Assembly (NCBI GenBank): GCA_001898505.1
Contig: MKTZ01000001.1
Coordinates: 682,001 to 746,000 of the forward strand
Direction: 5' to 3'
DNA from: Sphingobacteriales bacterium 50-39
GTDB taxonomy: Bacteria > Bacteroidota > Bacteroidia > Chitinophagales > Chitinophagaceae
DNA: 64,000 nt
Below are positions 21,930 through 57,229 of this stretch, piece by piece; the first letter of the stretch is position 1; each line of letters begins with the position of its first letter. Under the pieces are notes generated by a model, which was not told where the DNA came from, searched no databases, and was given only the letters and a program-made list of their open reading frames with translations. The position numbers were made by a program, and so were the translations under genes.

Positions 21930-22456
21930 TGTCTATACAATCTTCCCGCCAGCCTGGCACGAAATTCCTTTTCGATGTACAATCATGCCACTTTCCACCG
22001 CAATGACAAGATGCCTGTGTACATGTTCTCACTGGCCGAACTGGATCTGTTGGAGGCTGAGATCGAGCTGAAGGGACTGGCTTCCACCGGCGAGGCGGCG
22101 GAGGACCATATAAAGGATGCTGTAGTCCATTCCACCAACTACTGGTACAATATCAATCAGAACAGCGACTTTAAGGATAATCCGGATGCGCAGGGGGCTG
22201 CTGCTCCTTTGTATCCCATGAAGCCAGCGGATAATGTCATTTCCGACTGGGGTGATACCGTCAAGGCGAAATTTTTGGCTGCGGGCAGTGTCGATGACAA
22301 GATGGAGGTGGGGCGCGTTATCCGTCGTCGGAGCAAACGAATAATGCTTCGAATTTTTCGAAGGTGTCGGGTGAAAATAATATGACCAGCAAGATTTTCT
22401 GGGTACCTTCGGACAGAACCCCAAATATCTACTGGAGTGATTATAATTATAAGTAA
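21930..22456 (+). pseudogene. Remnant of a SusD/RagB-like lipoprotein gene (C-terminal part, internal deletion)
   Basis: In the frame of 21975 the sequence reads LPASLARNSFSMYNHAT, then FSLAELDLLEAEIELKG and a C-terminal-domain pattern up to DDKMEV near 22307. The next homologous piece is in another frame: RYPSSEQTNNASNFSKVSG ... MTSKIFWVPSDRTPNIYW, ending at TAA 22456. This is the usual end of SusD-like lipoproteins of the SusD-like_2 type, and about 70-90 codons (the ...RRTRHPK... section) are missing at the junction near 22315. No N-terminus or lipobox remains. Together with the sigma remnant it suggests that an ECF-FecR-SusC-SusD block was deleted down to its two ends. Confidence 0.7.
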
Positions 22457-25028
22457 GCAAAGACGGTGCGCCCTTTTAACCGGGGTATTATTTTCATTGT
22501 CAACAATTTTTTGCTTTGGTCAGGCTAAGGAGTATGTCTTTACCAAGGGGCTTTTTACGGCTGCGGGCGTCCATTACGGGCGGGAAGCGTTGTATACGGA
22601 TGCGCTGGCATGGCAGCTGTACACCGGCGGGCTAAAGCAACCTGTGGAAGGTGGTGAGTGGCTGGTGGATGAGAAGGGACGGCATTTAAGCTGGCAGGCG
22701 CTGGCCGCGGACAGTGTAGGAAGGTTCATCCAACGCAGGGGTGGACGGGGAGGCGGCGGTGGTGGCGGCTTTGGCTTTGGCGCGGGCTACCTTTATCTGG
22801 AATACTCATCGACAAAAGAAGAAAGCGTCCTTCTGCATGTGCAGGGGGATGCTTCTCTTTTCTTCAATGGAGAGCCGCATGCGGGTGATCCGTATAGTTC
22901 CGGGTGGTTGTATATTCCTGTCCGTCTAAAAAAGGGGGTGAATGAGCTGTATATACGTCCCGGCGGGCCGGTGAAGGCCAGTCTGATCTTTCCCGATAAG
23001 CCTATACAGCTGAATACAGAGGACCCTACTATGCCTGTTGTTGTAGCGGGTGCGGCTGAGAATGCTGCCTTGCAGGGAGCAGTCGTGGTGTTGAATTGTT
23101 CGGCTGCGCCGTTGAAGGGAAGCCGGATGCGGGCCGTGGTGAGTGGAAAGACCATGGAGACTTTGTTGCCGGAGGTTCCGGCGATGAGTAGCCGAAAAGT
23201 AGCCTTTTCTTTCGATGCGTCCGGTATGACCGGGAAAGGGAAATATGAGTGTTTAGTGACCCTGTTGGAAAAGGATAGGGTACTGGATGATAAAAAAATA
23301 GTGCTGGAAGGGGTAGAGGCGGGCGATCATTATAGTGTGACCTTTGTGAGCGGCATCGATGGGAGCCTGCAATATTATGCCGTGACGCCACAGACGAAGG
23401 GTGAGCCTGTGGTCAATTCTTTTATAGGGCCGGATGGACCTCCGCCGCCGGGGACTGTGTTCGCTCCCAATACTTCTTATGTAGCCGGAAGGGCTCCCGA
23501 TGGGGCGGCGAGCTCTGCGGGGCCTGCATTGTTCCTTTCGGTGCACGGGGCCGGTGTGGAAGCTATCGGCCAGGCAAGGGCCTATCAATCCAAGGACTGG
23601 GGGACTCTTGTTGCGGCCACCAACCGGCGTCCAAGGGGTTTTAACTGGGAGGATTGGGGGAGGCTGGATGCCATGGAGGTGTTGACGCTTGCAAAGGCGC
23701 GATTTCATCCTGACGAACGATATATTTATCTGACAGGGCATTCCATGGGTGGTCACGGCACCTGGTTCCTCGGAGCCACGTATCCGGATAAATGGGCTGC
23801 TATCGGGGCTTGCTCGGGGTATCCTACGTTGAAAGATTATGGCAGCCATGACGGGGTGATCCCCGACAGCGCCACATCTCCTGTAGAGCAGACACTGCTG
23901 CGCGCCAGCAATCAAAGCGATGTCATCAAGCTGGCGACGAATTACAAGCCATACGGGGTATATATCCTTCACGGGGATGCGGACATGGTGGTGCCCGTCA
24001 AATATGCGCGGCAGATGAGGAAGGTGCTGGGGGACTTTCATGCGGACCTCAGCTATCATGAGGTGCCTGGTGCGGAGCATTGGTATGGCAATCAAAGTGT
24101 GGACTGGAAGCCTTTGTTCGACTTTTTCAAATGGCATAGCCGTCATCCGGACAGCCTTGTGAACGATATAGATTTTACCACTTCCAACCCCGGGATATCG
24201 GCGTCGTTCCGTTGGGCCGGCATTCAGCAGCAGGTGCGGTCGTTGGAATACAGCCGGATGCAATTACGGCGGGATTTGAAAGAGAAAACTGTGGCAGGGA
24301 GTACGGAAAATATAGAAGTGCTGTCCCTGGCGTTGGCGGATTTTGGGAAGGGGGCTGTTGTGACGATACGGCTGGATAGCCTTGGGGCTTTGTCTTATAC
24401 AACTCAGTCGGCTGCCGATACCGTGTATCTTCATAAGGGAGCCGGTGGCTGGACGCTGGGTGCGAGGCCGGGGCCGGAAGAGAAGAATCCTGCCCGTGCG
24501 GGGACTTTTAAGGAGGCATTCGATCATCGTATGGTATATGTTTATGGGACATTGGGGAGCAGGGAGGAGCGGGAGTGGAGTATTTGCAAGGCGCGTTACG
24601 ATGCGGAGACATGGTATTACCGGGGTAATGGGGCCGTGGATATCGTGGCGGATAAAGATTATACCCCCGAGCGTTACCAGGGCAGGAGTGTGATATTGTA
24701 TGGGAATGCCTCGACCAATAGCGCCTGGGCGTTGTTGCTAAAGGACTGTCCGATACAGGTGAAACGAAATGAGCTGAAGGCCGGGGATAAGGTGTATACA
24801 GGAGATGATCTGGCTGCCTATTTTATACGACCGTTGCCCGATGGACTCACTTCTGTGGCTGTCATTGCGGGGACGGGGCTGAAGGGTATGCAGGCTGCCA
24901 ATGCGAATCAATATTTTGCCGGGGCCAGCGGCTTCCCCGACTATATGATCTTCCGGCTGCAGATGCTGCAAGCGGGGGCGTCGGGGGTGTTGATGGCAGG
25001 ATTTTTTAATAACGACTGGAAATTTTAA
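22437..25028 (+). CDS. Secreted alpha/beta-hydrolase (S9/esterase-like) of the glycan locus
   Basis: 863 residues from a GTG at 22437 that overlaps the end of the SusD remnant; no ATG fits, and the signal peptide (CALLTGVLFSLSTIFCFGQ) starts right after. An N-terminal beta-sandwich region with a Gly-rich stretch (residues ~102-115) precedes the hydrolase domain: GHSMGG with Ser436, Asp near 516 in HGDADMVVP and His near 547 in GAEHWYG form the triad. The C-terminal ~250 residues are beta-rich and unassigned. Such proteins in polysaccharide loci are esterases or peptidases that act on substituted glycans. It is followed after 23-86 nt by the multi-domain glycosidase gene. Confidence 0.85.
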   Translation: MIIIISKQRRCALLTGVLFSLSTIFCFGQAKEYVFTKGLFTAAGVHYGREALYTDALAWQLYTGGLKQPVEGGEWLVDEKGRHLSWQALAADSVGRFIQRRGGRGGGGGGGFGFGAGYLYLEYSSTKEESVLLHVQGDASLFFNGEPHAGDPYSSGWLYIPVRLKKGVNELYIRPGGPVKASLIFPDKPIQLNTEDPTMPVVVAGAAENAALQGAVVVLNCSAAPLKGSRMRAVVSGKTMETLLPEVPAMSSRKVAFSFDASGMTGKGKYECLVTLLEKDRVLDDKKIVLEGVEAGDHYSVTFVSGIDGSLQYYAVTPQTKGEPVVNSFIGPDGPPPPGTVFAPNTSYVAGRAPDGAASSAGPALFLSVHGAGVEAIGQARAYQSKDWGTLVAATNRRPRGFNWEDWGRLDAMEVLTLAKARFHPDERYIYLTGHSMGGHGTWFLGATYPDKWAAIGACSGYPTLKDYGSHDGVIPDSATSPVEQTLLRASNQSDVIKLATNYKPYGVYILHGDADMVVPVKYARQMRKVLGDFHADLSYHEVPGAEHWYGNQSVDWKPLFDFFKWHSRHPDSLVNDIDFTTSNPGISASFRWAGIQQQVRSLEYSRMQLRRDLKEKTVAGSTENIEVLSLALADFGKGAVVTIRLDSLGALSYTTQSAADTVYLHKGAGGWTLGARPGPEEKNPARAGTFKEAFDHRMVYVYGTLGSREEREWSICKARYDAETWYYRGNGAVDIVADKDYTPERYQGRSVILYGNASTNSAWALLLKDCPIQVKRNELKAGDKVYTGDDLAAYFIRPLPDGLTSVAVIAGTGLKGMQAANANQYFAGASGFPDYMIFRLQMLQAGASGVLMAGFFNNDWKF

Positions 25029-25075
25029 CACATCTGACAGGTAGCCACAGGATGGTTTCATGGGGCGGGTGTTCG

Positions 25076-25114: not shown

Positions 25115-28100
25115 ATGATAAGCTTGCACCGAATCTTCTTTTTTTCCCTTTTTGTATTGTTTGTTGTTAGTGATGCTTTTCCCCAGACCGGGACGAAGGG
25201 GGGACGTGCCGCCCTGCCGGCCGGTGAATGGAAGGCGGAGTGGGTGACAGACAGCAAGGAGCCTATTGTGGAGGATAGCCTGTTGTATCAGGATAATCCC
25301 GCGCCCCTGTTCAGGAAAGAATTCCAGGTGAGTGGGGCTGTAAGGAAAGCTACATTGTATATTACCGGTATTGGTTATTATGAAGCATCGATCAATGGGG
25401 GGAAGGTCGGAGATCATTTCTTAAGTCCCGGGTGGACGGATTACCGGAAGACCATACCTTATAATGTGTTTGATGTGACGGCCCGGCTACGGAGCGGGCG
25501 GAGCTGTCTGGGGGTGGAACTCGGGAATGGATGGTATAACCCCCTGCCGCTGCTGATGTGGGGCGGGCTGAATATTCGGAAGTCCGTGGCGACGGGGGCG
25601 CCACGATTTATTGCACGGCTGGAGATCGAATATGCGGATGGGCATAGTCAAACGGTGGTATCGGATGGATCGTGGAAGGTGATGGATGGTCCGTTGCGGA
25701 AGAATAACAACTATATCGGGTGTACATATGATGATAATTATGCTGTGCGGGGATGGAATATGCCTGGGGCGTCGGAGGCGGGGTGGAGGAATGTACGGGC
25801 GGTGTCGGGGCCTGGTGGAGAGCTGGTGGTACAGCAGCATCCACCTGTGCGTGTGCGGGAGGTTTTGCGACCCGTGGGCGTGCGGGTGTTGGGGCCGGGC
25901 AAATATCTGGTGGATCTGGGACGGAATTTTGGAGGGATCGTGCGGCTGAAGGCGAAGGGGCGGAAAGGTGATAAGGTGGTGCTGCGTTATGGCGAGCTGC
26001 TGTATCCGGATGGCTCATTGAATGTGATGACGAGTGTGGCGGGGCAGGTGAAGCGTGCCGGGATAGGTGGCCCTGGCGCGCCGCCTGTGGCATGGCAGGA
26101 GGATGACCTGATACTGGGGGATCGGGAGGTGGTGTTCGAGCCTTTGTTTACTTTTCACGGACTTCGTTACGTGGAGATCGATGGATATCCGGGGGTGCTG
26201 ACGGCGGATAAGATCCAGGGAATTGCGCTGGCGTCGGATGTGCCATCGGTGGGGACCTTCCGATGCAGTAATGATCTTTTTAACAAGATACAGGAGGTGA
26301 CGCGTCATACTTTTCTCAGCAATCTTTTTAGCGTCCAATCGGATTGTCCGCATCGGGAAAAGCTGGGGTATGGCGGTGATATTGTCGCTACGAGTGAGGC
26401 CTTTATGGCCAACTTTGGCATGCGTGAGTTTTATGCCAAAACCGTACGGGATTTTGCGGATGATGCGATGGCCGATGGGGGATTGACGGAGACCGCGCCG
26501 TATGTGGGCATTTCTGATGAGAGTCTGACGCGCGGATCGGGACCTATCGGGTGGGGGACGGTGCTGCCGTTGCTCTTGCGGCAGTTGTATCAATACTATG
26601 GCGACACGGCGCTGATCAGCTCCTGTTATCCTTTTGCAAAGGGATGGGTTGATTTTCTGCACGCGCATGCGGATCATTATATCATCAGCAAGGGCATTGG
26701 GGATCATGAGTCGGTGGATCCGAAACAGGTGGAGGTGACGAGTACCGCCTTCCTTTACTATAATACTCATTTGCTGTCGGAACTGGCGGGGGTACTGGGT
26801 AAGCGGGAGGAGGAGCGGAGATATGCGACGCTGGCGGATGAAGTGAAGGCGGCTTTTGTAAAGAAATTCTATGATCCTGCCACCGGTGCGGTAGGGATAC
26901 ATACGGAGGCGACGCAGGCTTTTGCCTTATATTTTCATCTGCTGCCTGCACAGGAGGAGGAGAAGGCATTGAAGGTGTTGATGGATCAGATAAACCATGC
27001 CAACAAGCATGTAAGGACGGGGATCTTTGGTACGAAGTATTTGTTGGAGGTGTTGTCGGAACATGGGCTGAGCGATGTGGCCTGTCGCATGGTGATGCAG
27101 AAGGATTTCCCTGGATGGGGGAATATGCTGGAGTATGGGGCTACAACGTTGTGGGAGCATTGGGAGTTTAGTGACAATACGTTTTCGCATAATCACCCCA
27201 TGTTCGGGAGTGTCAGCGGGTGGTTCTATAAATATATTGCGGGGATACGGCCGGCGCCGGATGCGGTGGGGTATGATAAGGTGATATTACAGCCGTCGGG
27301 TTTTGAGCGGTTGAGTTTTGCGCAGGCATCTTGTCGCACGGCACATGGAGAGATTCGCGCGGCCTGGAAGATAAAAGGGGACTCACTGTATTATGAGGTG
27401 ACCGTGCCGGAAGGAGTAACGGGGACGGTGATGTTGCCGGGGAAGATTGCTATGGTGGGGGCGGGTCATTATAAATATCGGGTGAGAGTGAGGACGAGTC
27501 AGGGGGCTGTTGCCGGTGCGGAGACTGCTGCCAGCCAGGTGGTGGGGGTGATACCTTATCCTGTGGCGGCATCGTCTGCAGGTGGGCAGTTTGTCATAGA
27601 TGGGAAGACGGAGATCGTCCGGGAGGTGAAAGGGAAGTTGTTCGAGGGAGAGGCGCAATTTCTGCGGAATATGCTCCATTCTTATTTGGGAGTGAGTGGT
27701 AGAGGCGGGGGTGGGAAAAAAATCATTTTGAGGGAGGATGTGTCTGTGAGGGAGGAAGAGGGGTACAGGCTGACTGTCAATGCACAGCAGATCGTGTTAT
27801 CGGCCAGTCATGGGGCGGGGATGTTCTATGCCATGGAGACCCTGCGTCAATTGTTACCGGCGGAGGTAGAGAATGGGCATGGTGGATCTTTGGCTGTTGC
27901 GGGTGTGGATATCAGCGATCATCCGAAATATGCGTGGAGGGGTATGCATCTGGATGTGTCGCGGCATTTCTTCTCTACGGATTATTTGAGAAAGTACATC
28001 GACATGATGGCACTGTACAAGATGAACAAGCTGCATCTGCATCTCACGGACGACCAGGGCTGGCGTATCGAGATCAGGAAATATCCCCGTCTGGCGACGG

Positions 28101-31100
28101 AGGGTGGCTGGCGGACTTTTAACAACCAGGATTCGGCCTGTATGCGGGTGGCGAAGGAAACGGGCAATCCGGATATGGACATCGATCCAAAGCATATCCG
28201 TACCGTCAATGGACAGGTGCAATATGGAGGATATTATACGCAGGCCGAGATGAAGGAGATAATCCGGTATGCCGCGAGCCGTCATGTGGAGATCATCCCG
28301 GAGATAGATATGCCGGGGCATATGATGGCGGCCATTGCCTTGTATCCCGAGCTGGCCTGTGAGGGATGGGGTGGAGATGATCTGACAAAAGGATTTTCCA
28401 CACCTATCTGTCCCTGCCGGGAGAATGTGCTGGAATTTGCCAAGGATATCTTTACGGAGATCGCTGCGCTCTTCCCTTCCCGCTATATACATATCGGTGG
28501 GGACGAGGTGGAAAGGAGTCATTGGGCGGCCTCTTCTCTGTGCCAGGCATTCATGAAGGAGCATCATATCCAGTCGCTGCCACAGCTGCAAAGTTATTTT
28601 AACGACTATATGCAAGCATTTTTCCGCAGCAAGGGGAAGATACTGATGGGATGGGACGAGATCGTGGAAGGGGGGATCGACTCTACGGCGGCCGTCATGT
28701 TCTGGCGGGCCTGGGCGAGGACGATGCCTGCGAAGGCGACGGCGAATGGGAACAAGGTGGTGATGGCGTCGGATGGTCCTTTGTACTTCGATGCCATACC
28801 CGATAAGAATTCTCTCTCTCAAGTATACCATTACAATCCTGTAGATCCGCTGTATGGGATGAATGCTCAACAGCAAAAAAATATTATAGGCGTGCATGCC
28901 TGTCTCTGGAGCGAGATGGTGCCTACCGAGGAGCGGGCTGATCATATGATCATGCCACGACTCACGGCATTGGCTGAGTTGGGCTGGACGAACCGGGACC
29001 TCTATGATAGTTATTTACAGCGGCTGGCAGGGCAGTATGACAGGCTGGACAGATTGAAGGTTCATTACCGACTACCTGATCTGCCGGAGGCGATGGATAA
29101 TCGGGTCTTTGTGGATACGGCAACTTTTATGGTGAAACCGCCTATGAGGGGAATGAGCATTCATTATACGATCGATGGGAGCTGGCCGACGTTGCAATCG
29201 CCTGTATTGGAGAGCCCGCTGCGGATAGATCATTCGCTGACCTTGCGGATGGCGGCTTTTACGGCGGCGGGGAGGAGAGGGGATGTGAGTACGACTGAGT
29301 TCCGGCGGGAAGATTATGCGAGGCCAGTAGGGGCCGGGGGGATGGAGGCAGGGTTGCGATGTAAGGTATATAAAGGGGACTTTAGTCGTACTGCGGATAT
29401 GAAGGGGGCGGCTGTGCAGGAGCTTGTGATGGCTGGGCCAGGCCTTTTGAAGGAGACGCCAATCACGGGGTGGGGGATGCAGTTTACGGGATATATAAAT
29501 GTACCGGAGACCGGTGTTTATACTTTTCTTCTCAATTCGGATGACGGGAGTGTACTGCGGATTGCGGGGAGACTTGTAGTGGATAATGACGGATTGCACA
29601 GTGCAAGGGAGAAGGTGGGCCAGGTGGCTTTGGAGAAGGGACTGCATGTATTCAGCCTGGACTTTATCGATGGGGGTGGCGGAAGTGCATTGGACCTGCG
29701 GTATAGTGTAAATAACGGGCCTATACGGGATGTGCCTGCGGTGTGGTTCAGGCATGGAGAAGAGATAAATACCTCGGCCATCCACAAAGCAGATGATCAC
29801 CCCCGTATCGTCAATATCGTCAATTTTATCCGCTGGCTGGAGCCGAGGGATGCGGCTATCACGAAGGATGTGCTGTATGAGACCGTAGTGAAGCAAATAG
29901 ATCTGATGAAGCGTTGCCGGCTGGGCGGGACCTTTCTCCTTCAATATGATGCGTTGATCGATCCACGTTATCAACGGCTGCTGCAGACATTGTCCAGGGA
30001 CAGCTTTGAGATCGGAGCGTGGTGGGAGCTGCCACAGCAGCTGGTAGAGAAGGCTGGCCTTAAATGGAGAGGAAGGTATTCCTGGGACTGGCGCGCGGAT
30101 GTAGGATTCGCGGCGGGGTATTCCGTTGAGGAGCGCCGGAAACTGGTAGACATATATATGGAGGATTTTAAACAGATATTCGGGTACTATCCACGTAGTG
30201 TGGGATCCTGGTATATCGATGCCTATACGCTGGATTATATGTACAGCAAATATGGCATCAAGGCCAGCTGTAACTGTAAGGACCAGGTGGGTACCGATGG
30301 GTATACCTTATGGGGTGGTTATTGGAACCAGGCGTATTATCCCAGCAGGCTGTCTGCCTATATGCCTGCGCAGCATATGGAGCATCAGATACCTGTGCCC
30401 GTGTTCCGGATGTTGGGGAGCGATCCTATCCGGCAGTATGAGAATGGGTTGGGGATGGGGCATCAGGGTGTGGTCACGCTGGAGCCCGTATATGGGAATG
30501 CGGGTGCGGATAGTACCTGGGTGCAGTGGTTCCTGAAGCAGCTGGTGGAAGGACCTTGTATGGAGTATGGCTATACGCAGGCAGGGCAGGAGAATTCTTT
30601 TACCTGGGCTGCGATGGGGAAGGGGCTGGAGATGCAGTTCCCATTGATTGCCCGGCTGCGCGATGAGGGTAAGCTAAAAGTGGAGACGTTGGAGGCATCG
30701 GGACAATGGTTCAAGGAGCATTATGCGGTGACGCCTGCTACGTCTGTGACGGTGAAGGAAGACCTGCCCGGGGGTGATAAGAAAACTGTGTGGTTCGACA
30801 GCCGCTGGTACAGGGCGAACTTTATCTGGGAAAAGGGAACGATGCGTTGCCGGGACCTGCATCTTTTTGACGAGGGGAAGGTGGGGGATGTGCCGCAGGC
30901 GAATCCTTCAACGGTGAGCGTCATGAGTACGCTGCCTTTTATCGACGGGTATATGTGGAGCGGTAAGGATCATGTGGCGGGGATGCGGCTGATGGTGAAG
31001 GAAGAGGGGCAAGAGGTGGAACTAAAGGGAGGCGATCCGGTGGTAACGGATACGATCAAGGGAAAATTATTCATCCGGTGGCCATTAGCTTCTTATGATG

Positions 31101-31387
31101 CTGCGTTGCTGGTGGAACTGTCGGAAGATAGGATGCGGCTGAGCATGGAGGGGAATGGGCCGGCGGATTGGTATCTTGACCTCGTGTGTTCGGGGAGCGC
31201 GAAGCTGCCTTTTAAAAAGATAAGTAGTCGCCGGATAGAGGGGCAGTATGAGGGCAGGGTATATAGTGTGCGGGCCCTGAAGGGGGCGTTTGAGAAAGGT
31301 GGTGATGCGTCGGCTGTGGCAGGAGGGTCGCCTGTGTGGACGATACATCCGGGGAAGGAGGGGATTGAGGTGAAGATGGGGGAGTAA
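25115..31387 (+). CDS. Multimodular glycosidase: GH78 rhamnosidase - GH20 hexosaminidase - PA14 - DUF3863-like
   Basis: 2090 residues from the ATG at 25115, chosen because it starts the signal peptide (MISLHRIFFFSLFVLFVV); an earlier start at 25052 reads through the promoter. Modules in order: GH78 alpha-L-rhamnosidase (~25-800; DCPHREKLGYGGD motif and TTLWEHW); GH20 N-terminal domain (~809-930) and catalytic barrel (~935-1330; HIGGDE with Asp1130-Glu1131); Fn3-like strap (~1338-1392); PA14 carbohydrate-binding domain (~1408-1549); then ~530 residues (RIVNIVNFIRW ... GSWYIDAYTLDYMY ... CNCKDQVGTDGYTLWGGYW) that I recall as the DUF3863/DUF3864 type. Each is normally a separate secreted enzyme. 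Reading frame is unbroken across both junctions. Rhamnose- and HexNAc-containing glycan is the inferred substrate. Confidence 0.9.
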   Translation: MISLHRIFFFSLFVLFVVSDAFPQTGTKGGRAALPAGEWKAEWVTDSKEPIVEDSLLYQDNPAPLFRKEFQVSGAVRKATLYITGIGYYEASINGGKVGDHFLSPGWTDYRKTIPYNVFDVTARLRSGRSCLGVELGNGWYNPLPLLMWGGLNIRKSVATGAPRFIARLEIEYADGHSQTVVSDGSWKVMDGPLRKNNNYIGCTYDDNYAVRGWNMPGASEAGWRNVRAVSGPGGELVVQQHPPVRVREVLRPVGVRVLGPGKYLVDLGRNFGGIVRLKAKGRKGDKVVLRYGELLYPDGSLNVMTSVAGQVKRAGIGGPGAPPVAWQEDDLILGDREVVFEPLFTFHGLRYVEIDGYPGVLTADKIQGIALASDVPSVGTFRCSNDLFNKIQEVTRHTFLSNLFSVQSDCPHREKLGYGGDIVATSEAFMANFGMREFYAKTVRDFADDAMADGGLTETAPYVGISDESLTRGSGPIGWGTVLPLLLRQLYQYYGDTALISSCYPFAKGWVDFLHAHADHYIISKGIGDHESVDPKQVEVTSTAFLYYNTHLLSELAGVLGKREEERRYATLADEVKAAFVKKFYDPATGAVGIHTEATQAFALYFHLLPAQEEEKALKVLMDQINHANKHVRTGIFGTKYLLEVLSEHGLSDVACRMVMQKDFPGWGNMLEYGATTLWEHWEFSDNTFSHNHPMFGSVSGWFYKYIAGIRPAPDAVGYDKVILQPSGFERLSFAQASCRTAHGEIRAAWKIKGDSLYYEVTVPEGVTGTVMLPGKIAMVGAGHYKYRVRVRTSQGAVAGAETAASQVVGVIPYPVAASSAGGQFVIDGKTEIVREVKGKLFEGEAQFLRNMLHSYLGVSGRGGGGKKIILREDVSVREEEGYRLTVNAQQIVLSASHGAGMFYAMETLRQLLPAEVENGHGGSLAVAGVDISDHPKYAWRGMHLDVSRHFFSTDYLRKYIDMMALYKMNKLHLHLTDDQGWRIEIRKYPRLATEGGWRTFNNQDSACMRVAKETGNPDMDIDPKHIRTVNGQVQYGGYYTQAEMKEIIRYAASRHVEIIPEIDMPGHMMAAIALYPELACEGWGGDDLTKGFSTPICPCRENVLEFAKDIFTEIAALFPSRYIHIGGDEVERSHWAASSLCQAFMKEHHIQSLPQLQSYFNDYMQAFFRSKGKILMGWDEIVEGGIDSTAAVMFWRAWARTMPAKATANGNKVVMASDGPLYFDAIPDKNSLSQVYHYNPVDPLYGMNAQQQKNIIGVHACLWSEMVPTEERADHMIMPRLTALAELGWTNRDLYDSYLQRLAGQYDRLDRLKVHYRLPDLPEAMDNRVFVDTATFMVKPPMRGMSIHYTIDGSWPTLQSPVLESPLRIDHSLTLRMAAFTAAGRRGDVSTTEFRREDYARPVGAGGMEAGLRCKVYKGDFSRTADMKGAAVQELVMAGPGLLKETPITGWGMQFTGYINVPETGVYTFLLNSDDGSVLRIAGRLVVDNDGLHSAREKVGQVALEKGLHVFSLDFIDGGGGSALDLRYSVNNGPIRDVPAVWFRHGEEINTSAIHKADDHPRIVNIVNFIRWLEPRDAAITKDVLYETVVKQIDLMKRCRLGGTFLLQYDALIDPRYQRLLQTLSRDSFEIGAWWELPQQLVEKAGLKWRGRYSWDWRADVGFAAGYSVEERRKLVDIYMEDFKQIFGYYPRSVGSWYIDAYTLDYMYSKYGIKASCNCKDQVGTDGYTLWGGYWNQAYYPSRLSAYMPAQHMEHQIPVPVFRMLGSDPIRQYENGLGMGHQGVVTLEPVYGNAGADSTWVQWFLKQLVEGPCMEYGYTQAGQENSFTWAAMGKGLEMQFPLIARLRDEGKLKVETLEASGQWFKEHYAVTPATSVTVKEDLPGGDKKTVWFDSRWYRANFIWEKGTMRCRDLHLFDEGKVGDVPQANPSTVSVMSTLPFIDGYMWSGKDHVAGMRLMVKEEGQEVELKGGDPVVTDTIKGKLFIRWPLASYDAALLVELSEDRMRLSMEGNGPADWYLDLVCSGSAKLPFKKISSRRIEGQYEGRVYSVRALKGAFEKGGDASAVAGGSPVWTIHPGKEGIEVKMGE

Positions 31388-31390
31388 GAT

Positions 31391-32284
31391 CTAGTAAGTA
31401 ATTTTATAATAAAACAATTCAGGTTTCACTCCTTCGCTGGTGGTGTAGTAGCCTGTGCCTTCGAGGTTGAACCCGATGGCTTCTCCCTGTGGCTCGACAA
31501 TATAGGGGAGGATGGCGGGTGGGCGGCGGAGTGTCTTCCAGACCGGCTCGCAGGCGGGGCGTGGCCAATAGTATACTTTTCTGTAGCTTTTTAGCAATAT
31601 CTGATAGCCATCGGCGGAGATATCGCCTGCTGTGATCCATTTGCCTTTGCCGGAGAAATAGAGGGTTGTATTCTTTGTAAGGGTGATCGTGTCATGGGCC
31701 CTGAAGTTCAGCGGTGTACTGTATACGTGTACGGAGTCCTCTCTTTTGGAGACGATGTATATCAGCTTGTCGATAGGATCTACCATGAGGGTCTCTGCGT
31801 CGCGGGGGCCGTCGGGGTATTGGAGAACGAGGGGAGCGGCGTCGAGGCGATCGACGGGGACGGTGGGTGTGGGGAAGTGCAGGATGGGTTCTTTTATTCT
31901 ATAAACAGTAATATATTTTCTCCGGCTGTTGTTGTCACCTATGTCACCCATGTATACATAATTGGTGTTGCTGTCGGGACCCGGTCCGACGGCGATGTCT
32001 TCGCAGTCTTTTACGCCCAGGGAGAGGGTGGGGTCTCCATCGAAATAAAGGATGGCTCGCAGGCGACCGTCGGGAGTGATGGCGAAGAAGCGGCTGGAGT
32101 CTCCGCTGTCATTATGTACATAGAGATAACCGGGGTTGGTCCGGGAGGCGGCGATGCCGGAAGTTTCGTCCATGCGCGGGTCGTCCAGGAAGGAGTCGGT
32201 GGGTATCCGCAGGTGTTTGTAGCGGCAGGATGTAAGAATGAATACCGAACAGACGAACATTTGACGGATGGAGGGGAACAACAT
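31391..32284 (-). CDS. Lipoprotein with esterase/phytase-like beta-propeller
   Basis: 297 residues; lipobox FILTSC at residue ~20. The mature part starts DETSGIAASRTNPGYLYVHNDSGD and continues with VKDCEDIAVGPGPD and VYMGDIGDNNSRRKY, a pattern of a secreted propeller family in Bacteroidota that resembles phytase/esterase-like propellers (DxSG, WEDIA, DIGDN repeats). Calcium or substrate ligation by these Asp residues is likely but catalytic activity is not established. It converges on the fusion glycosidase gene with 3 bp between the stops. Confidence 0.75.
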   Translation of the reverse strand: MLFPSIRQMFVCSVFILTSCRYKHLRIPTDSFLDDPRMDETSGIAASRTNPGYLYVHNDSGDSSRFFAITPDGRLRAILYFDGDPTLSLGVKDCEDIAVGPGPDSNTNYVYMGDIGDNNSRRKYITVYRIKEPILHFPTPTVPVDRLDAAPLVLQYPDGPRDAETLMVDPIDKLIYIVSKREDSVHVYSTPLNFRAHDTITLTKNTTLYFSGKGKWITAGDISADGYQILLKSYRKVYYWPRPACEPVWKTLRRPPAILPYIVEPQGEAIGFNLEGTGYYTTSEGVKPELFYYKITY

Positions 32285-33716: not shown

Positions 33717-34736
33717 TTAGCGTATGGCTGTGTTGACGCCGCTGCGGAAGGGGACATTGAAGAGATTTACATTAATGGTCCATTCGTCCGTGCCTTTGCC
33801 CGGATGTATCCAGGAGGGATCGGCGACCCTGGATGGGCTGGCCAGTCTGTAGACTATGTCGTTGGAGGGACGGTCCTTGTCCTGATCGGCAATGATGAGT
33901 ACCCGCCAGGGCAGGGTGCGGTTGCCTTTTATCCGGGCGATGTAGTTTGCGCGGCGGGTGACGATGGCTTCGGGATATTCGCCGGGCATCAGCCGTTCTT
34001 GCAGGGGATAGGGGGCGAAGTCGCCTATGAGGATGGGGGCGCCGGTGCCGGCGATGAACATGCCGGGATAGTCTTCGAGGTCGGACTCGGTGAGTGCGAT
34101 CTTGGGGGTGGGGGAGACCGGGGAGCCGGTGGCTGAGTTCGTGATGTCCGTGACCAGTACCGGAGAATAAGCGATCTCGCCGGGTGCGATGGAGTCCAGT
34201 CTTCTCAATGGGTAGAGCTCTTCGAAACTGGTATGGTAGATGTCTGCGTCGGGGCGTTTTTTTATACCAGGGAACCAGGCGGAAGGGTTGCCGGGGAAAT
34301 GGAAGCGGGCTATTTCTTTCTGTATGGTGAGGGTGTCCTTAAACAGCGTGATGATACGATAGGCCACCGCGTCGTCGTATACACGGAACTCCAGTCGATA
34401 GGGCTGTCGGAAGGAGAGGGTGAGTGCATTATAATGATCGGGTATATGTATCCTTTTTTCGGGTACGGGGGAGATGATCTCTTCGGCTACTTGGCGGGTG
34501 GTGTGGGTGCGGATGGGGTTGTTGTGGGAGAGGGCGGGGGCGCCGAGAGGGATGAGGTCGATGATGGAGGTGTCGAGGATGAGGCGGGAGTCTTCGAAGA
34601 GGCGGTATTTTATTTCGTGGTCCTGCCAGACCTCGAGGGTGAGGCGGCCGGAGGGGGAGGAGAGCCGCAGGGTGTCGGAAGGAAAAGCTTGAAGAGTAGT
34701 TAGTAATGCAATTAAAATTATGATCGATCTATTCAT
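33717..34736 (-). pseudogene. GH97 pseudogene, N-terminal fragment
   Basis: 339 codons starting with a signal peptide (MNRSIIILIALLTTLQAF) and the GH97 N-terminal super-sandwich (LRLSSPSGRLTLEVWQD ... DAVAYRIITLFKDTLTI), then the start of the catalytic barrel (SPSRVADPSWIHPGKG and VPFRSGVNTAI). It breaks off at a stop just where the next barrel strand should begin; downstream homology resumes 10-40 nt later in another frame. A deletion of roughly 170 bp with frame change explains it. The upstream promoter region has TAAATTGG (one base short of the -7 consensus). Confidence 0.85.
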
Positions 34737-51242: not shown

Positions 51243-54200
51243 ATGAAAATATTTTTCCGGGTATTGGTGGCCCTGATTTTGGGGGCCACTAAGCTGTCGG
51301 CCCAATCTAACGGTTCTGTCCCAGGTGTCAACACCATCGAGTCCAATTTTTCTCATCCTCCTCCTGCTGCCCGTCCTGGGGTGTACTGGTATTTTATGGA
51401 TGGCAACCGGAACAAGGCTGCCATGTCTGCTGACCTGGAGTCCATGAAGCGGGTGGGTATCGGGAATGTATTATTCCTGGAAGTCAATGTGGGTGTGCCG
51501 CGTGGTCCGGTGGATTTTCTTAGTGAGGAGTGGAATGAGCTGTTCAGGCATGCGGTGCGGGAATGTGAACGGCTTGGGATCGAATTGGTGCTAGGAACCG
51601 GTCCCGGGTGGACGGGTAGCGGCGGGCCGTGGGTGAAGCCGGAGGAGTCTATGCAGGAACTTGTGGGGAGTACGACGTATGTAACCACCCCTTCAGGGGG
51701 CGCTCCAGGTGGGGCCGTGCCGGGAACGGCCGGCCGGATCGTGCTGCCGGTGCCTGCGCCAAGAAAGCCGTATTTTGGGATGGGCGTATTTACTCCGCCG
51801 TTGAAAAAAGAATGGGATGATTTTTATAGGGATGTGGCTGTGCTGGCGTGGCCGACGCGGGACAGTTCTTTTAAAATAAAAGACATCGACGAGAAGGCTT
51901 TGTATTATCGGGAGCCTTATACTTCTGTACGTGGCGTGAAAGCTTATCTCCCATCACCCAGTGATTCTACTTTATCTGCTGATATTGTCATTCCAAAAGA
52001 AAAGGTTCTCGACCTGACAGACAAGTTGTCTGCGGACGGGGTATTGACCTGGGACGCTCCTCCGGGCAACTGGACCATCGTGCGGCTGGGCGTGCGTAAT
52101 AACGGGGCGGTGACGCGGCCTGCGCCTATACCGGGATTGGGTTTCGAGTGTGACAAGATGGATACTGTTGCGCTCAACGACCATCTACAGGACTATGTGG
52201 GGAAGCTGCTGGCAAAGACCGGAGACCCCGATCCCCGTCTGGAGGGAGGGTTCAAGCGGCTGCATATAGACAGCTGGGAGATGGGTTCGCAGAACTGGAC
52301 CCCTCATTTCCGGGAGGAATTTATCCGGCGTCGAGGGTATGACCCTCAACCATTTTATCCTGTTTATTTAGGGAATATCGTGGGCAGTCTGGGGATGAGC
52401 GAGCGATTCCTATGGGATCTTCGTCAGACCTCACAGGAGCTGGTGTTGGCGTATCACGCCGAGCAGGTGAAGAAATACAGTCATCGTCATGGGATGACAT
52501 TGTCTATCGAGCCGTATGATATGAACCCAACTGCCGATCTGGAGCTGGGGGCTGTAGCAGATGTGCCCATGTGTGAGTTCTGGAGCAAGGGATATGGGTT
52601 CAACTCTTCCTTTAGCTGTATCGAGGCCACCTCTATTGCCCATGTGAATGGGATACCGCTGGTGCCTGCGGAGTCCTTTACGGCAGGGGATGAGGAAGGC
52701 TGGAAGCAATATCCCGGCAGCATGAAGAACCAGGGTGACTGGGCATTTGCAACGGGGATCAACCGGCTGGTGTATCATACTTTTCAGCATCAGGCGCTGG
52801 ACTCCTCTCTGAAGCCGGGGATGACGATGGGCCCTTATGGGGTGCATTGGAACCGGAGCCAGACCTGGTGGCCGATGGTGGGTGCTTATCACAACTATAT
52901 AGCGCGGTGTCAATATCTGTTACAGCAAGGGCGTACTGTGGCCGATATACTGTATCTGACACCCGAGGGGTCGCCGCATGTCTTTCGGGCTCCTGTGTCT
53001 GCGATGACGGAGGATGATGCCGTGATGCCGGATAGAAAGGGTTTTAACTTCGATGGTTGTGCGCCAAGCCAATTATACAAGGCATCCGTGCGGGATGGGA
53101 AGATTGTATTCCCCGGCGGGGCTGAGTACAGGGTATTGGTATTGCCGTCTACGCCTACGATGACGCCCACCCTACTTAAGAAGATTATCGATCTTGTGCA
53201 AGCGGGGGCAACTGTGATGGGGGCGCCGCCTCAGCGGAGTCCGAGTCTGGCCGGGTATCCGGGGTGCGATGAACAGGTGGGGGCGCTGGTGAAGGAGGGG
53301 TGGGGCGGGACGTTGGCGCCGGGTAGGAGGTTGGAGCGAGGTGTAGGGAAGGGACGGATCGTATGGGGCGGGAATCTTGCGGGGAATGACAATTTGTATC
53401 CGTCGTATGGGGTGACGGCGGAGGTGTTGCATTCGATGGGGGTTCGAGAGGATTTTTCTTCGGATGGGTCTTTGCGTTATACGCATCGGACCGGAGAGGG
53501 ATGGGATGCATATTTTGTTTCGAATAAACGGGATAGTGGGGTTCGTACAGAAGTAACCTTTCGTGTAGGGAGCGGTACGCCGGAGCTGTGGGATGCGGTG
53601 ACCGGACGGCGGAGGAAGTTACCGGAATATACTGTGAAGGATGGGATGATGGTGGTGCCGATGGTGTTGCGGCCGTATGAGAGTTTTTTTGTCGTATTTA
53701 GGAAGGAGAATTTGGTGAAGCCCGGGGCGGGCCTGGCGAAGAGGCCGGGGGCGGGTAAGAACTTTTCGGAGGGCCATGACATCAGGACATTGCGAGGACC
53801 GTGGGCTGTGTCGTTCGATACTGTGTGGGGCGGTCCGGCTAAGGTGCGATTTGATTCGTTGTACGACTGGACGAGGAGTGGGGTGGATGGGATACGGTAT
53901 TATTCGGGGATCGCCCATTACCGGAAGATATTCGATGCACCGGTGAAGTCGGTGCCGGTGGGGGCTGCGGCGGTGAGGTCCGGTGACAGGATTTACCTGG
54001 ACCTGGGAGTGGTAAAAGATATGGCGAGGGTACGGCTCAATGGAGCGGATCTGGGTGTGGTATGGACCGCGCCGTGGAGAGTAGATATTACGGACCATTT
54101 GCGGGCGGGGAACAATGAGCTGGATATCGAGGTGGTGAACAGGTGGCCGAACCGGCTCATCGGAGATGAGCGGAGGCCGGATGATGGCATAAAGGACGGG

Positions 54201-54341
54201 AAGTGGCCGGAGTGGTTGTTGGCAGGGAAGCCGAGGATGAGCGGGAGATATACATTTACTACGTATAAACATTATAGCGCGGACTCACCTTTGCTGCCGT
54301 CGGGATTGCTGGGGCCGGTGAGGGTGGTGGTGGCGCCTTAG
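51243..54341 (+). CDS. GH106-like glycoside hydrolase (alpha-L-rhamnosidase family)
   Basis: 1032 residues with signal peptide (MKIFFRVLVALILGATKLSAQ). The barrel opens with PGVYWYFMDGNRNKAAMSADLESMKRVGIGNV and ELVLGTGPGWTGSGGPWVKPEESMQEL, the GH106 start, and continues with the DSWEMGSQNWT segment. The C-terminal ~150 residues form a beta-sandwich with LDLGVVKDMARVRLNGADLGVVWTAPW, as in the sugar-binding domain of GH2/GH106 relatives. GH106 enzymes release alpha-L-rhamnose by inversion. Its 3' end overlaps the convergent patatin-like gene by 4 bp. The protein is secreted or outer-membrane associated; substrate inferred. Confidence 0.85.
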   Translation: MKIFFRVLVALILGATKLSAQSNGSVPGVNTIESNFSHPPPAARPGVYWYFMDGNRNKAAMSADLESMKRVGIGNVLFLEVNVGVPRGPVDFLSEEWNELFRHAVRECERLGIELVLGTGPGWTGSGGPWVKPEESMQELVGSTTYVTTPSGGAPGGAVPGTAGRIVLPVPAPRKPYFGMGVFTPPLKKEWDDFYRDVAVLAWPTRDSSFKIKDIDEKALYYREPYTSVRGVKAYLPSPSDSTLSADIVIPKEKVLDLTDKLSADGVLTWDAPPGNWTIVRLGVRNNGAVTRPAPIPGLGFECDKMDTVALNDHLQDYVGKLLAKTGDPDPRLEGGFKRLHIDSWEMGSQNWTPHFREEFIRRRGYDPQPFYPVYLGNIVGSLGMSERFLWDLRQTSQELVLAYHAEQVKKYSHRHGMTLSIEPYDMNPTADLELGAVADVPMCEFWSKGYGFNSSFSCIEATSIAHVNGIPLVPAESFTAGDEEGWKQYPGSMKNQGDWAFATGINRLVYHTFQHQALDSSLKPGMTMGPYGVHWNRSQTWWPMVGAYHNYIARCQYLLQQGRTVADILYLTPEGSPHVFRAPVSAMTEDDAVMPDRKGFNFDGCAPSQLYKASVRDGKIVFPGGAEYRVLVLPSTPTMTPTLLKKIIDLVQAGATVMGAPPQRSPSLAGYPGCDEQVGALVKEGWGGTLAPGRRLERGVGKGRIVWGGNLAGNDNLYPSYGVTAEVLHSMGVREDFSSDGSLRYTHRTGEGWDAYFVSNKRDSGVRTEVTFRVGSGTPELWDAVTGRRRKLPEYTVKDGMMVVPMVLRPYESFFVVFRKENLVKPGAGLAKRPGAGKNFSEGHDIRTLRGPWAVSFDTVWGGPAKVRFDSLYDWTRSGVDGIRYYSGIAHYRKIFDAPVKSVPVGAAAVRSGDRIYLDLGVVKDMARVRLNGADLGVVWTAPWRVDITDHLRAGNNELDIEVVNRWPNRLIGDERRPDDGIKDGKWPEWLLAGKPRMSGRYTFTTYKHYSADSPLLPSGLLGPVRVVVAP

Positions 54342-57229
54342 AAACCTGCCGTGATCCTTAGAATTTTTTTGATACCTTCCTGGTTATAGGACCGGATCAT
54401 GTCCGGGTCGAAGCTGTGAGATAATCTTTCCAGCGAGGGCGCGGATATCTGCCAGCCGAGGGGGAGGACGGGTGAATACAACGAGCCCCCGCTTCCTGCC
54501 ACACAGGTAGCGGTGATCCAGACAGAGGAATAGTCGGAGCGGATGCCGGGGAACTGTGTAGAGTCGGAGATGTACCGATATTGGAGGGTGTTGTCCGCCG
54601 ACATGGCGTTGCCATAGATGCCGCTGTTGACGATGCCTACCAGGGGGCTGATGGGTTCAAACCTATTGGAGACCAACTGCCGGGTGTCGGGATTGTAGTA
54701 GGGGCTGTTGGTGAGGGAGACGAAATAAAAGCGAACTTTTTTTATCAGCCGCATAAAAAGGCTGTCGTCTGTCCGAAGGCACCCCTGACGGGCCAGGCTG
54801 ATAAAGATGTCTTCGGAGGTGGATGCGCCGGAATTGTCCTTCCCTCCACCATCCATAAAATGATAGCCTGCTCCTATCTTACCGCTGGGGCTTATAAAGG
54901 GGAAGCGGGCGCTGAGGAAAGCGCCTGTGATCAGCGGGAGGGTTGCCTGTGCGGGCAGTCTATCCCGTATAAAGATGGCGCCGGGGAAATCATTTTTCGA
55001 GAGCACTATGGGAGCCATAATGCCTTTTAGCCCATCGTCAACATTCAGGGTATTGGAAAATAATAACGGGACTTCGTAGCGCGCGGGGTTAGCTGCGGAG
55101 GTGTCCCATAGAAAATCGAAGGCGTTGTTGAGCTGTATGTCCAGGCCTGTGCGGCCAAAACCTGCCCATATCCTTTCCTGTATAGCGGCCCTGTCCTCCC
55201 AAACGGGGTATCCGACGGCGGAGGCCCAGACATCCCGTCCTATCATACTACCCAATACGGGCGTGAGAAAATCGTGTTTGTAAAAATCCCGGAAATATTG
55301 CAGGCTGTATGCGCCGGCACTGCTGTCGAGATGTCTGTACCGGTAGGCACATTGTACGGTAGCACCAATGGTTCCACCCGAGGCGCCGCTGACGGAAAAG
55401 ACGAAATGTTCGAATCCTTTACGGTTTTTCGAGGTGGTTATGAGGGTGCTGTCGAGCCAGGAGAACATCATATTCGTAAAGGATGCCGCCTTGATGCCGC
55501 CACCATAGGAATTGACGAGGAAGACAGGATAGTTGTCGGGGCCGTTGAGGATCTCGTCCTTGCGCTGCAGGAGCCAGCCTTTGAAATAGTTATTGAGGGT
55601 AGGAGGACTCGCTACGCGAGCGGATGAAGTGAGACGAACAGCATGAAAGTCGTTGGGAATGCTGATAGCCAGGATGAGGCCCGTGATCAGTATGAAGAAT
55701 ACCAGGTTGATCTTCAGCCAGAGGCTGAGACGTATCAATAGGGTGAAGAGGATGATATAAAAAATGATACCGGCCAGCAGAACAGGTAGGGTGAGATAAT
55801 TAGAATCCAGGTTCAGCACCGAGGAAGGGAAGATATTGAAGAGTATGAAAAGAAGGGCCAGGAGGAGACCGCCCAGGATGATAGGCCATCCGATGTGGCG
55901 ACCGATCAATCCCTGTCCTGTGAATATATTGGTGCGGGTGCTGACGAATATCCAGAAGGCCTTTGCCAGGAGCAGGAGATGGATGAAAAGCCATATGAGG
56001 GCGCCGGGTGTATTGCTGTCTTCTTTCAGGAGAGAAAGCCTGATCAGCCCTGGCAGGATAAATGCCAGCAATATCAAGGTTGTGATGAAGATGGTATTGG
56101 CGGTGGCCTCATTCCAGCGGTCTTTTATCCAGCACCAGACCTTACATGCCAGATCGTATTTTATCAGGACGAAGAAAAGGGAGAGCAGGGCTACGAGCCA
56201 TATAATGGGTGGGAAGATATCCAGTGGATAATGTATTCGAAGGGCCCGGAGGGCGTTCAGTATCGCTGTAGCGGGGATGATGATCGTCGCCACGCCAAGA
56301 TAGCGGGATACCTTTTTCTCTGAAGCTTCCCGGATGGGGTCGGTGATCACGGGCTCCACCATGGGGCATACCGGCCCTTTATATTCCTGTTCGAAGAATA
56401 GCTTGGCCAGCCACCAGTTGAGCAGGGCGGCCATGCATACGACACCCACGAAAAGAACGACACCGTTGTCACTGGAATTGCTGTTGACGAGCAGGTCCTG
56501 TCCCTGGTCCATTATCCAGATGGGGAGAGAAAAGGCCACTACGCCAATAAGGATGACCCTATAGCGGAATAGCTGAATGCTCTTATTGCGAATGTACCCG
56601 GACAGCTTTTGGAGTCCCTTATCCTTTATGACGAGTGTAAAAGGTAGATAGAGGAAGAGGATAAAGGCCAGGATGATGAACTTGGTCATGGCTACAGCGT
56701 GGGTCAGGCGGGCCGTGAATTCGGTGGAATGAGACGTATTATTAAGGCCATCGCGGATGAATTGCAGCATACCAATGTTCTCTATCACGTCACAGATGCC
56801 GGCTATCAGGGGCAGCGCCAGCAGGACATGGCTGAACCAGGAGTCTGTCTTTCCGATGCGGCTTTGAAGAGCGGCAATGATGATGATGCCCAGGGCCGTG
56901 TAGAGCAGTATGAAGAGGAAGTCCATCCGGACATCGGTGCGGGCCTTATGGAGTCTGTTGATGGCGGATGAGGCAGCGCTGCAGGGATTGGCGGTCGAAC
57001 GATCCAGCGTATCCTGTTCCCAGGACCTGACGATGGCGCCGTCGGCGGCGCGGGTGGGGCCCAGTTCGAGGGAAACTATGCCTTTGGGCGCCTTATCATT
57101 TTTTAGATAGGTCTGGTCTTTTAGCTGGAGGAAGGCGACGATGAAGGTCGCGGTGAATACCGGCCAGAAAAGGAGTTTAAAATTTTGACGTACAAAATGG
57201 TACAATCGGCTGATCGGGAACAGGGACAT
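54338..57229 (-). CDS. Patatin-like phospholipase with large polytopic membrane domain
   Basis: 963 residues. About 12 membrane helices lie in residues ~15-560; the C-terminal ~400 residues are a patatin domain: FLVNSYGGGIKAA (oxyanion hole), VFSVSGASGGTIG with nucleophile Ser in GxSxG, and the DGG motif in HFMDGGGKDNSG supplying the catalytic Asp. So the Ser-Asp dyad is complete. Patatins hydrolyse acyl esters of phospholipids; the membrane domain is unlike that of the outer-membrane PlpD type. Divergent from GH20 with 75 bp between them. Its cellular role is unknown. Confidence 0.82.
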   Translation of the reverse strand: MSLFPISRLYHFVRQNFKLLFWPVFTATFIVAFLQLKDQTYLKNDKAPKGIVSLELGPTRAADGAIVRSWEQDTLDRSTANPCSAASSAINRLHKARTDVRMDFLFILLYTALGIIIIAALQSRIGKTDSWFSHVLLALPLIAGICDVIENIGMLQFIRDGLNNTSHSTEFTARLTHAVAMTKFIILAFILFLYLPFTLVIKDKGLQKLSGYIRNKSIQLFRYRVILIGVVAFSLPIWIMDQGQDLLVNSNSSDNGVVLFVGVVCMAALLNWWLAKLFFEQEYKGPVCPMVEPVITDPIREASEKKVSRYLGVATIIIPATAILNALRALRIHYPLDIFPPIIWLVALLSLFFVLIKYDLACKVWCWIKDRWNEATANTIFITTLILLAFILPGLIRLSLLKEDSNTPGALIWLFIHLLLLAKAFWIFVSTRTNIFTGQGLIGRHIGWPIILGGLLLALLFILFNIFPSSVLNLDSNYLTLPVLLAGIIFYIILFTLLIRLSLWLKINLVFFILITGLILAISIPNDFHAVRLTSSARVASPPTLNNYFKGWLLQRKDEILNGPDNYPVFLVNSYGGGIKAASFTNMMFSWLDSTLITTSKNRKGFEHFVFSVSGASGGTIGATVQCAYRYRHLDSSAGAYSLQYFRDFYKHDFLTPVLGSMIGRDVWASAVGYPVWEDRAAIQERIWAGFGRTGLDIQLNNAFDFLWDTSAANPARYEVPLLFSNTLNVDDGLKGIMAPIVLSKNDFPGAIFIRDRLPAQATLPLITGAFLSARFPFISPSGKIGAGYHFMDGGGKDNSGASTSEDIFISLARQGCLRTDDSLFMRLIKKVRFYFVSLTNSPYYNPDTRQLVSNRFEPISPLVGIVNSGIYGNAMSADNTLQYRYISDSTQFPGIRSDYSSVWITATCVAGSGGSLYSPVLPLGWQISAPSLERLSHSFDPDMIRSYNQEGIKKILRITAGF

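Follow-up and report, generated by a model that had tools for sequence, protein, structure and literature searches.

Carbohydrate-active enzymes with more than one catalytic domain per chain are known, an example being the CE15-GH8 protein of Bacteroides eggerthii, and according to the paper that describes it (PMC8417218) the domains of some multicatalytic enzymes act without synergy. Here we analyse a gene of Sphingobacteriales bacterium 50-39 (Chitinophagaceae), located within a window of 64,000 nucleotides (the whole stretch of DNA analysed), whose product joins a GH78 alpha-L-rhamnosidase module, a GH20 beta-N-acetylhexosaminidase followed by a PA14 domain, and a third, C-terminal module (the C module). 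Like CE15-GH8, the window protein carries several catalytic domains in one chain, but they belong to other enzyme families, the GH8 part of the B. eggerthii protein acting on xylo-oligosaccharides according to the same paper (PMC8417218). We consider the window protein to be, more likely than not, a secreted multicatalytic three-module exo-enzyme of Chitinophagaceae that acts on a glycan containing rhamnose and N-acetylhexosamine (a Rha/HexNAc glycan) and whose C module is probably also a glycosidase, the third in the chain. The names carried by close relatives make Puia or a neighbouring genus the probable place of the bacterium. The initial annotation knew of no characterised enzyme with this module order, and our literature search on this architecture, rhamnosidase fusions, DUF3863 and BDI_3119 (open-licence papers and few subscription journals) found nothing on the architecture and no paper on DUF3863; the combination is nevertheless not confined to this protein, as 12 of the 120 listed matches (the best 120 of 202) contain both GH78 and GH20 domains, four of them together with the C module.

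One conserved frame for all modules

The gene occupies positions 25115..31387 of the forward strand and encodes 2,090 amino acids from ATG to stop, with a second in-frame ATG upstream at 25052. An N-terminal signal peptide was recognised by eye (25115..25186, forward strand) and a lipobox cysteine was not seen. The initial annotation described an unbroken multi-enzyme frame with intact motifs and no signal peptides at its joints, and each of these points held: Pfam finds GH78, GH20 and PA14 in the 2,090-residue frame, the motifs DCPHREKLGYGGD (residues 410-422), TTLWEHW (677-683) and HIGGDE (1126-1131) are present, and neither a stop codon nor, by eye, a signal peptide occurs at joint 1 or joint 2.

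Three further clusters in the protein database (P0003, P0005 and P0006; 2,076-2,107 aa) have the same module order, which makes four clusters in which a single conserved frame encodes GH78, GH20-PA14 and the C module. Identity to the window protein is 84-87% in GH78, 84-92% in GH20, 77-84% in PA14 and 87-90% in the C module, against 39-76% across the two linkers. Linker 1 (27455..27538, forward strand) varies in length and sequence among relatives, and linker 2 (29750..29800, forward strand) is 65-76% identical to, and as long as, that of P0003, P0005 and P0006, and is longer in P0004. Comparison with a syntenic relative (G017) indicates purifying selection, with a ratio of nonsynonymous to synonymous substitution rates (dN/dS, by NG86) of ~0.13 in GH78 and GH20; the ratio is rough, as dS is near saturation (dN 0.19 and dS 1.45 in GH78; 0.21 and 1.57 in GH20). 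Because of this ratio and the conservation in other clusters, the frame lies far beyond chance. Close relatives that stop at joint 2 could suggest that the long frame is an assembly artefact, but P0003, P0005 and P0006 span both joints on different contigs (28.5, 26.1 and 227.7 kb), each with linkers of its own, and distinct linker sequences on separate contigs exclude a single assembly error. We reject this explanation, which we regard as extremely improbable.

The GH78 and GH20 modules

The GH78 module (25337..27445, forward strand; residues 75-777) comprises Bac_rhamnosid_N (75-249), a concanavalin-like domain (259-371), the six-hairpin domain (378-708) and Bac_rhamnosid_C (710-777), the same four Pfam domains in the same order as in the GH78 alpha-L-rhamnosidases 6i60, 3w5m and 6gsz of the PDB. 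The six-hairpin catalytic domain and the N- and C-terminal rhamnosidase domains exceed the Pfam cut-offs. Glu415 lies in the first of the motifs named above and Glu681 in TTLWEHW; both align with conserved glutamates of 3w5m and 6i60, and we take them to be the general acid and base. Unlike the PDB enzymes, the window module has a C-terminal fusion partner, and its acid motif is one residue shorter (DCPHREKLG, compared with DCPQRDERMG and DTPARDERLG). GH78 enzymes are inverting and release alpha-L-rhamnose from non-reducing ends, an activity that can safely be predicted for the window protein at family level.

Domain 2 and the catalytic domain of the GH20 module (27545..28993, forward strand) are recognised as GH20b (811-935) and GH20 (939-1293), both above the Pfam cut-offs. 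As in the beta-N-acetylhexosaminidases 6q63, 7cbn and 4c7d, with which it aligns, the module has both domains and the Asp-Glu pair, here Asp1130-Glu1131 within HIGGDE, presumably the catalytic pair; unlike those enzymes, it sits within a longer chain and lacks a signal peptide of its own. GH20 enzymes are retaining, use substrate-assisted catalysis and release beta-GlcNAc or beta-GalNAc, and this activity too is a safe family-level prediction. Pfam also recognises a CHB_HEX_C_1/Fn3_assoc domain (29144..29302, forward strand; residues 1344-1396) and PA14, a domain that may bind glycan (29471..29689, forward strand; 1453-1525).

The C module: fold and candidate residues

In a structure model, the C module consists of a barrel of the NodB/DUF3863 type (29804..30733, forward strand) and a C-terminal all-beta part (30740..31384, forward strand). 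The final model was built from diverse relatives and replaced one built from close relatives that was poor in the most conserved region (predicted local distance difference test, pLDDT, 75.2). Sequence searches assign no family: residues 1526-2090 match nothing in Pfam at E<=10, GH57 included, and the module matches nothing in NCBIfam or in a PDB sequence search. The label 'DUF3863-like' given by the initial annotation stands as far as the module shares the fold of the DUF3863 structure 3lm3 (BDI_3119) and, in a profile comparison, matches a genuine DUF3863 protein over a short stretch, and fails in that the Pfam model does not match. The two are 14% identical, and the C module is longer (535 versus 434 residues); we know of no function for 3lm3. 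PF12979 gave no match in the bacterium's own genome, in a run in which the control was also silent; it matched 2 of 247 genomes of the phylum, the window genome not among them, and 1 of 48 relatives (E 0.057), and precomputed PF12979.14 tags, from a newer version, are present on some relatives.

Candidate catalytic residues of the barrel are Asp1612, Glu1638, Asp1728, Asp1770, Glu1790 and Glu1826. Many carboxylates and aromatics are invariant down to ~31-35% identity, as counted over 58 distant rows from which the close fused relatives P0003-P0007 were left out. In alignment A2, P0299 is reliably placed at module residues 136-241 alone; Glu271 (module numbering) is not aligned there and was matched to DUF3863 by eye. 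Among the fold families listed for comparison, the module has a barrel of the GH57 type, with no GH57 sequence match. Its GC content (0.547, compared with 0.53-0.57 in the other modules) gives no sign of a recent foreign origin, which we rejected.

Distribution and fusion partners of the C module

Relatives of the C module are numerous (5,226 at E<=0.001 among 8,000 candidates scored), and standalone copies of ~560 aa are very common; the A1 profile places the module in 3 of 247 genomes of the phylum, the window genome included. A glycosidase partner was recognised in 32 of 65 long C-module proteins, and 26 of these partners are of rhamnosidase type (GH78, GH106 or C7, an unnamed GH78/GH37-like protein), alongside three with GH20 alone and one each with GH28 (PF00295 of P0063, which we take as GH28), GH29 and GH32. 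Seven of the 65 contain GH20, four of them also GH78, including P0004, a fragment. GH78 partners lie on separate branches and fused C modules on several branches of the trees, so the pairing of rhamnosidase and C module arose repeatedly. The fused C modules of the window's clade form one group (SH-aLRT 100) in a tree made by a quick method that left out the very distant P0063-P0066 and 19 of the 23 rows with Ig-type domains.

A similar arrangement from other families is that of the C7-GH106-C module proteins P0012, P0013, P0016, P0020 and P0022 (2,284-3,362 aa; Pfam scan of P0012 and P0022). Like the window protein, they carry rhamnosidase-type modules with the C module last, but the rhamnosidase families are others, GH20 is absent and their C module belongs to another branch. 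P0022, at 3,362 aa, combines C7 and the C module with GH106, which is matched in three stretches and apparently amounts to two modules. Fusions of C7 directly to the C module also exist, and C7 and C-module genes overlap by 4 bases in two genus-mates, one of each order; a C7 gene with an overlapping C-module gene is found at L116 (6154-8736) and L123 (1899-4412). At L125 (1396-5448), C7 has an alpha-1,3-glucanase-type second half.

Probable stepwise assembly of the fusion

In Bacteroidota, GH20-PA14 often occurs as a separate gene. It was found at E<=1e-150 in 26 of 294 genomes of the family, with the long frame only in the window and 764-900 aa elsewhere; among the 80 of 322 loci kept in a scan of named genomes, 72 have a separate GH20-PA14 gene, seven GH78 only and one (L016) a two-module fusion. 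The genus-mate G015 (L126) has GH78 and GH20 as neighbouring, unfused genes, of which the GH20 gene runs off the end of the contig. In Pedobacter sp. HMWF019 (L021, 7536-12806), a GH78 gene from a different branch directly precedes a separate GH20-PA14 gene.

Forms in which GH78-GH20-PA14 has nothing after it are P0187, P0188, P0189, P0191 and P0192, with P0190 partial; in their protein records, P0187, P0188 and P0189 stop at joint 2 (~29.78 kb). The G017 copy (the same protein as P0192) sits in the same neighbourhood as the window gene, between the esterase and convergent genes, without the C-module block. P0197 and P0217 are a more distant form with both GH78 and GH20 domains. The G017 genome holds a second, more distant GH78-GH20 match (C12, 82756-86802; 44% identity over query residues 32-1359, open frame of 1,850 aa).

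The initial annotation took separate genes at either joint as a sign against the fusion. Separate or shorter forms do exist at both joints; since all the modules of P0003, P0005 and P0006 share a single frame, these forms speak for stepwise assembly and against an artefact. In both the GH78 and the GH20 tree, two-module forms branch among three-module ones, an arrangement forced by well-supported forks in the GH20 tree and not in the GH78 tree; the simplest history is a single gain of the C module followed by its loss or exchange. P0007, in which GH78 is joined straight to the C module, groups with P0006 in the GH78 tree and fits an inner deletion of GH20-PA14. In the genus scan, where fusion was judged by open-frame length, the G027 copy (L119), truncated where its contig ends, seems to be fused to a different GH78, and the window's C-module fusion is therefore not the sole one in the genus.

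Genomic neighbourhood

Upstream of the fusion lies an alpha/beta-hydrolase (esterase-like) gene (22437..25028, forward strand) and downstream a convergent gene of no recognised family (31391..32284, reverse strand); both are syntenic in G017, where the latter directly follows the two-module fusion. A GH106 rhamnosidase gene (51243-54341) and a standalone second GH20 gene (57305-59128) stand 3 kb apart, ~20 kb from the fusion, so that rhamnosidase and hexosaminidase recur together in the window. Between them, 54338-57229 (reverse strand) encodes 963 aa with no Pfam match at E<=1e-5 and no NCBIfam match at E<=0.01. Only a GH97 N-terminal domain was matched in the 339-aa product of 33717-34736 (reverse strand), in which the catalytic part seems to be missing. 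An apparent SusD-like remnant, seen by eye, lies between a sigma factor gene and the esterase gene (21975-22440, forward strand); NCBIfam returned nothing for its 136-aa frame.

Proposed function of the three-module protein

Under the reading that we favour, GH78 would take off terminal alpha-L-rhamnose and GH20 beta-GlcNAc or beta-GalNAc, and tethering would keep the activities side by side, whether in the periplasm or extracellularly, so that the sugars at chain ends might be removed one after another. The C module, with its NodB/GH57-kind barrel and all-beta part, may be a third glycosidase that is carboxylate-based and has no metal triad, and it may cooperate with rhamnosidases on one rhamnose-containing glycan; we infer this third activity and the substrate of the protein. 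Several observations weigh against the proposal. Deacetylase-type structures are nearer in fold to the C module than GH57 is; no glycosidase partner was recognised in 33 of the 65 long C-module proteins, and 23 of these 33 carry Ig-type domains; and the 26 of 65 with rhamnosidase-type partners are a raw count. The forms that lack the C module (P0187-P0189) resemble the window protein just as closely as those that carry it, so the module is dispensable, and the SusC/D genes that would link the gene to a polysaccharide utilization locus are on the opposite strand, ~5-10 kb off.

The C module could instead be a polysaccharide deacetylase or a different ester or amide hydrolase, in either case of the NodB/CE4/PuuE kind, whose deacetylation would open the glycan for GH78 and GH20. 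CE4 polysaccharide deacetylases have an Asp-His-His metal site, but this site is missing here because no barrel histidine is conserved (histidine is most frequent at position 314, with 21 of 44 rows), and a large all-beta part after the barrel is a trait of GH57/GH38-type proteins; we judge such an activity improbable. Much the same low weight falls on a dead or purely binding C module, which would leave in effect a bifunctional GH78-GH20 enzyme: two-module relatives live without it and CE4 pseudoenzymes are among its fold neighbours, but carboxylates and aromatics so widely invariant would be out of the ordinary in a module that only binds, and standalone copies abound. Somewhat less remote, though still unlikely, is a fusion without functional coupling, in which the stop codons between adjoining genes were lost and each module acts on its own, an account compatible with our favoured reading of the single modules. 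The adjacent, separate genes of G015 would suit it, as would the lack of inter-domain synergy in some characterised multicatalytic enzymes mentioned in the paper cited above (PMC8417218), but several clusters keep the fusion with diverged linkers and well-kept modules, and the C module has joined rhamnosidase-type partners on several branches.

The fusion links a very common module to enzymes of known chemistry; the likely substrates of the C module are thereby narrowed down to glycans that contain rhamnose, and its function can be tested directly. It is conceivable, if short of an even chance, that the C module represents a new and very widespread family of glycoside hydrolases with a deacetylase/GH57-type barrel, as the first of its enzymes to be recognised, that it is specific for a linkage found beside rhamnose, and that the window protein acts as an exo-enzyme that breaks down one Rha/HexNAc glycan in three steps. 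Should the C module prove to be a glycosidase, it would found a new family, and the enzymes united in the chain would tell which sugars co-occur in a natural glycan.
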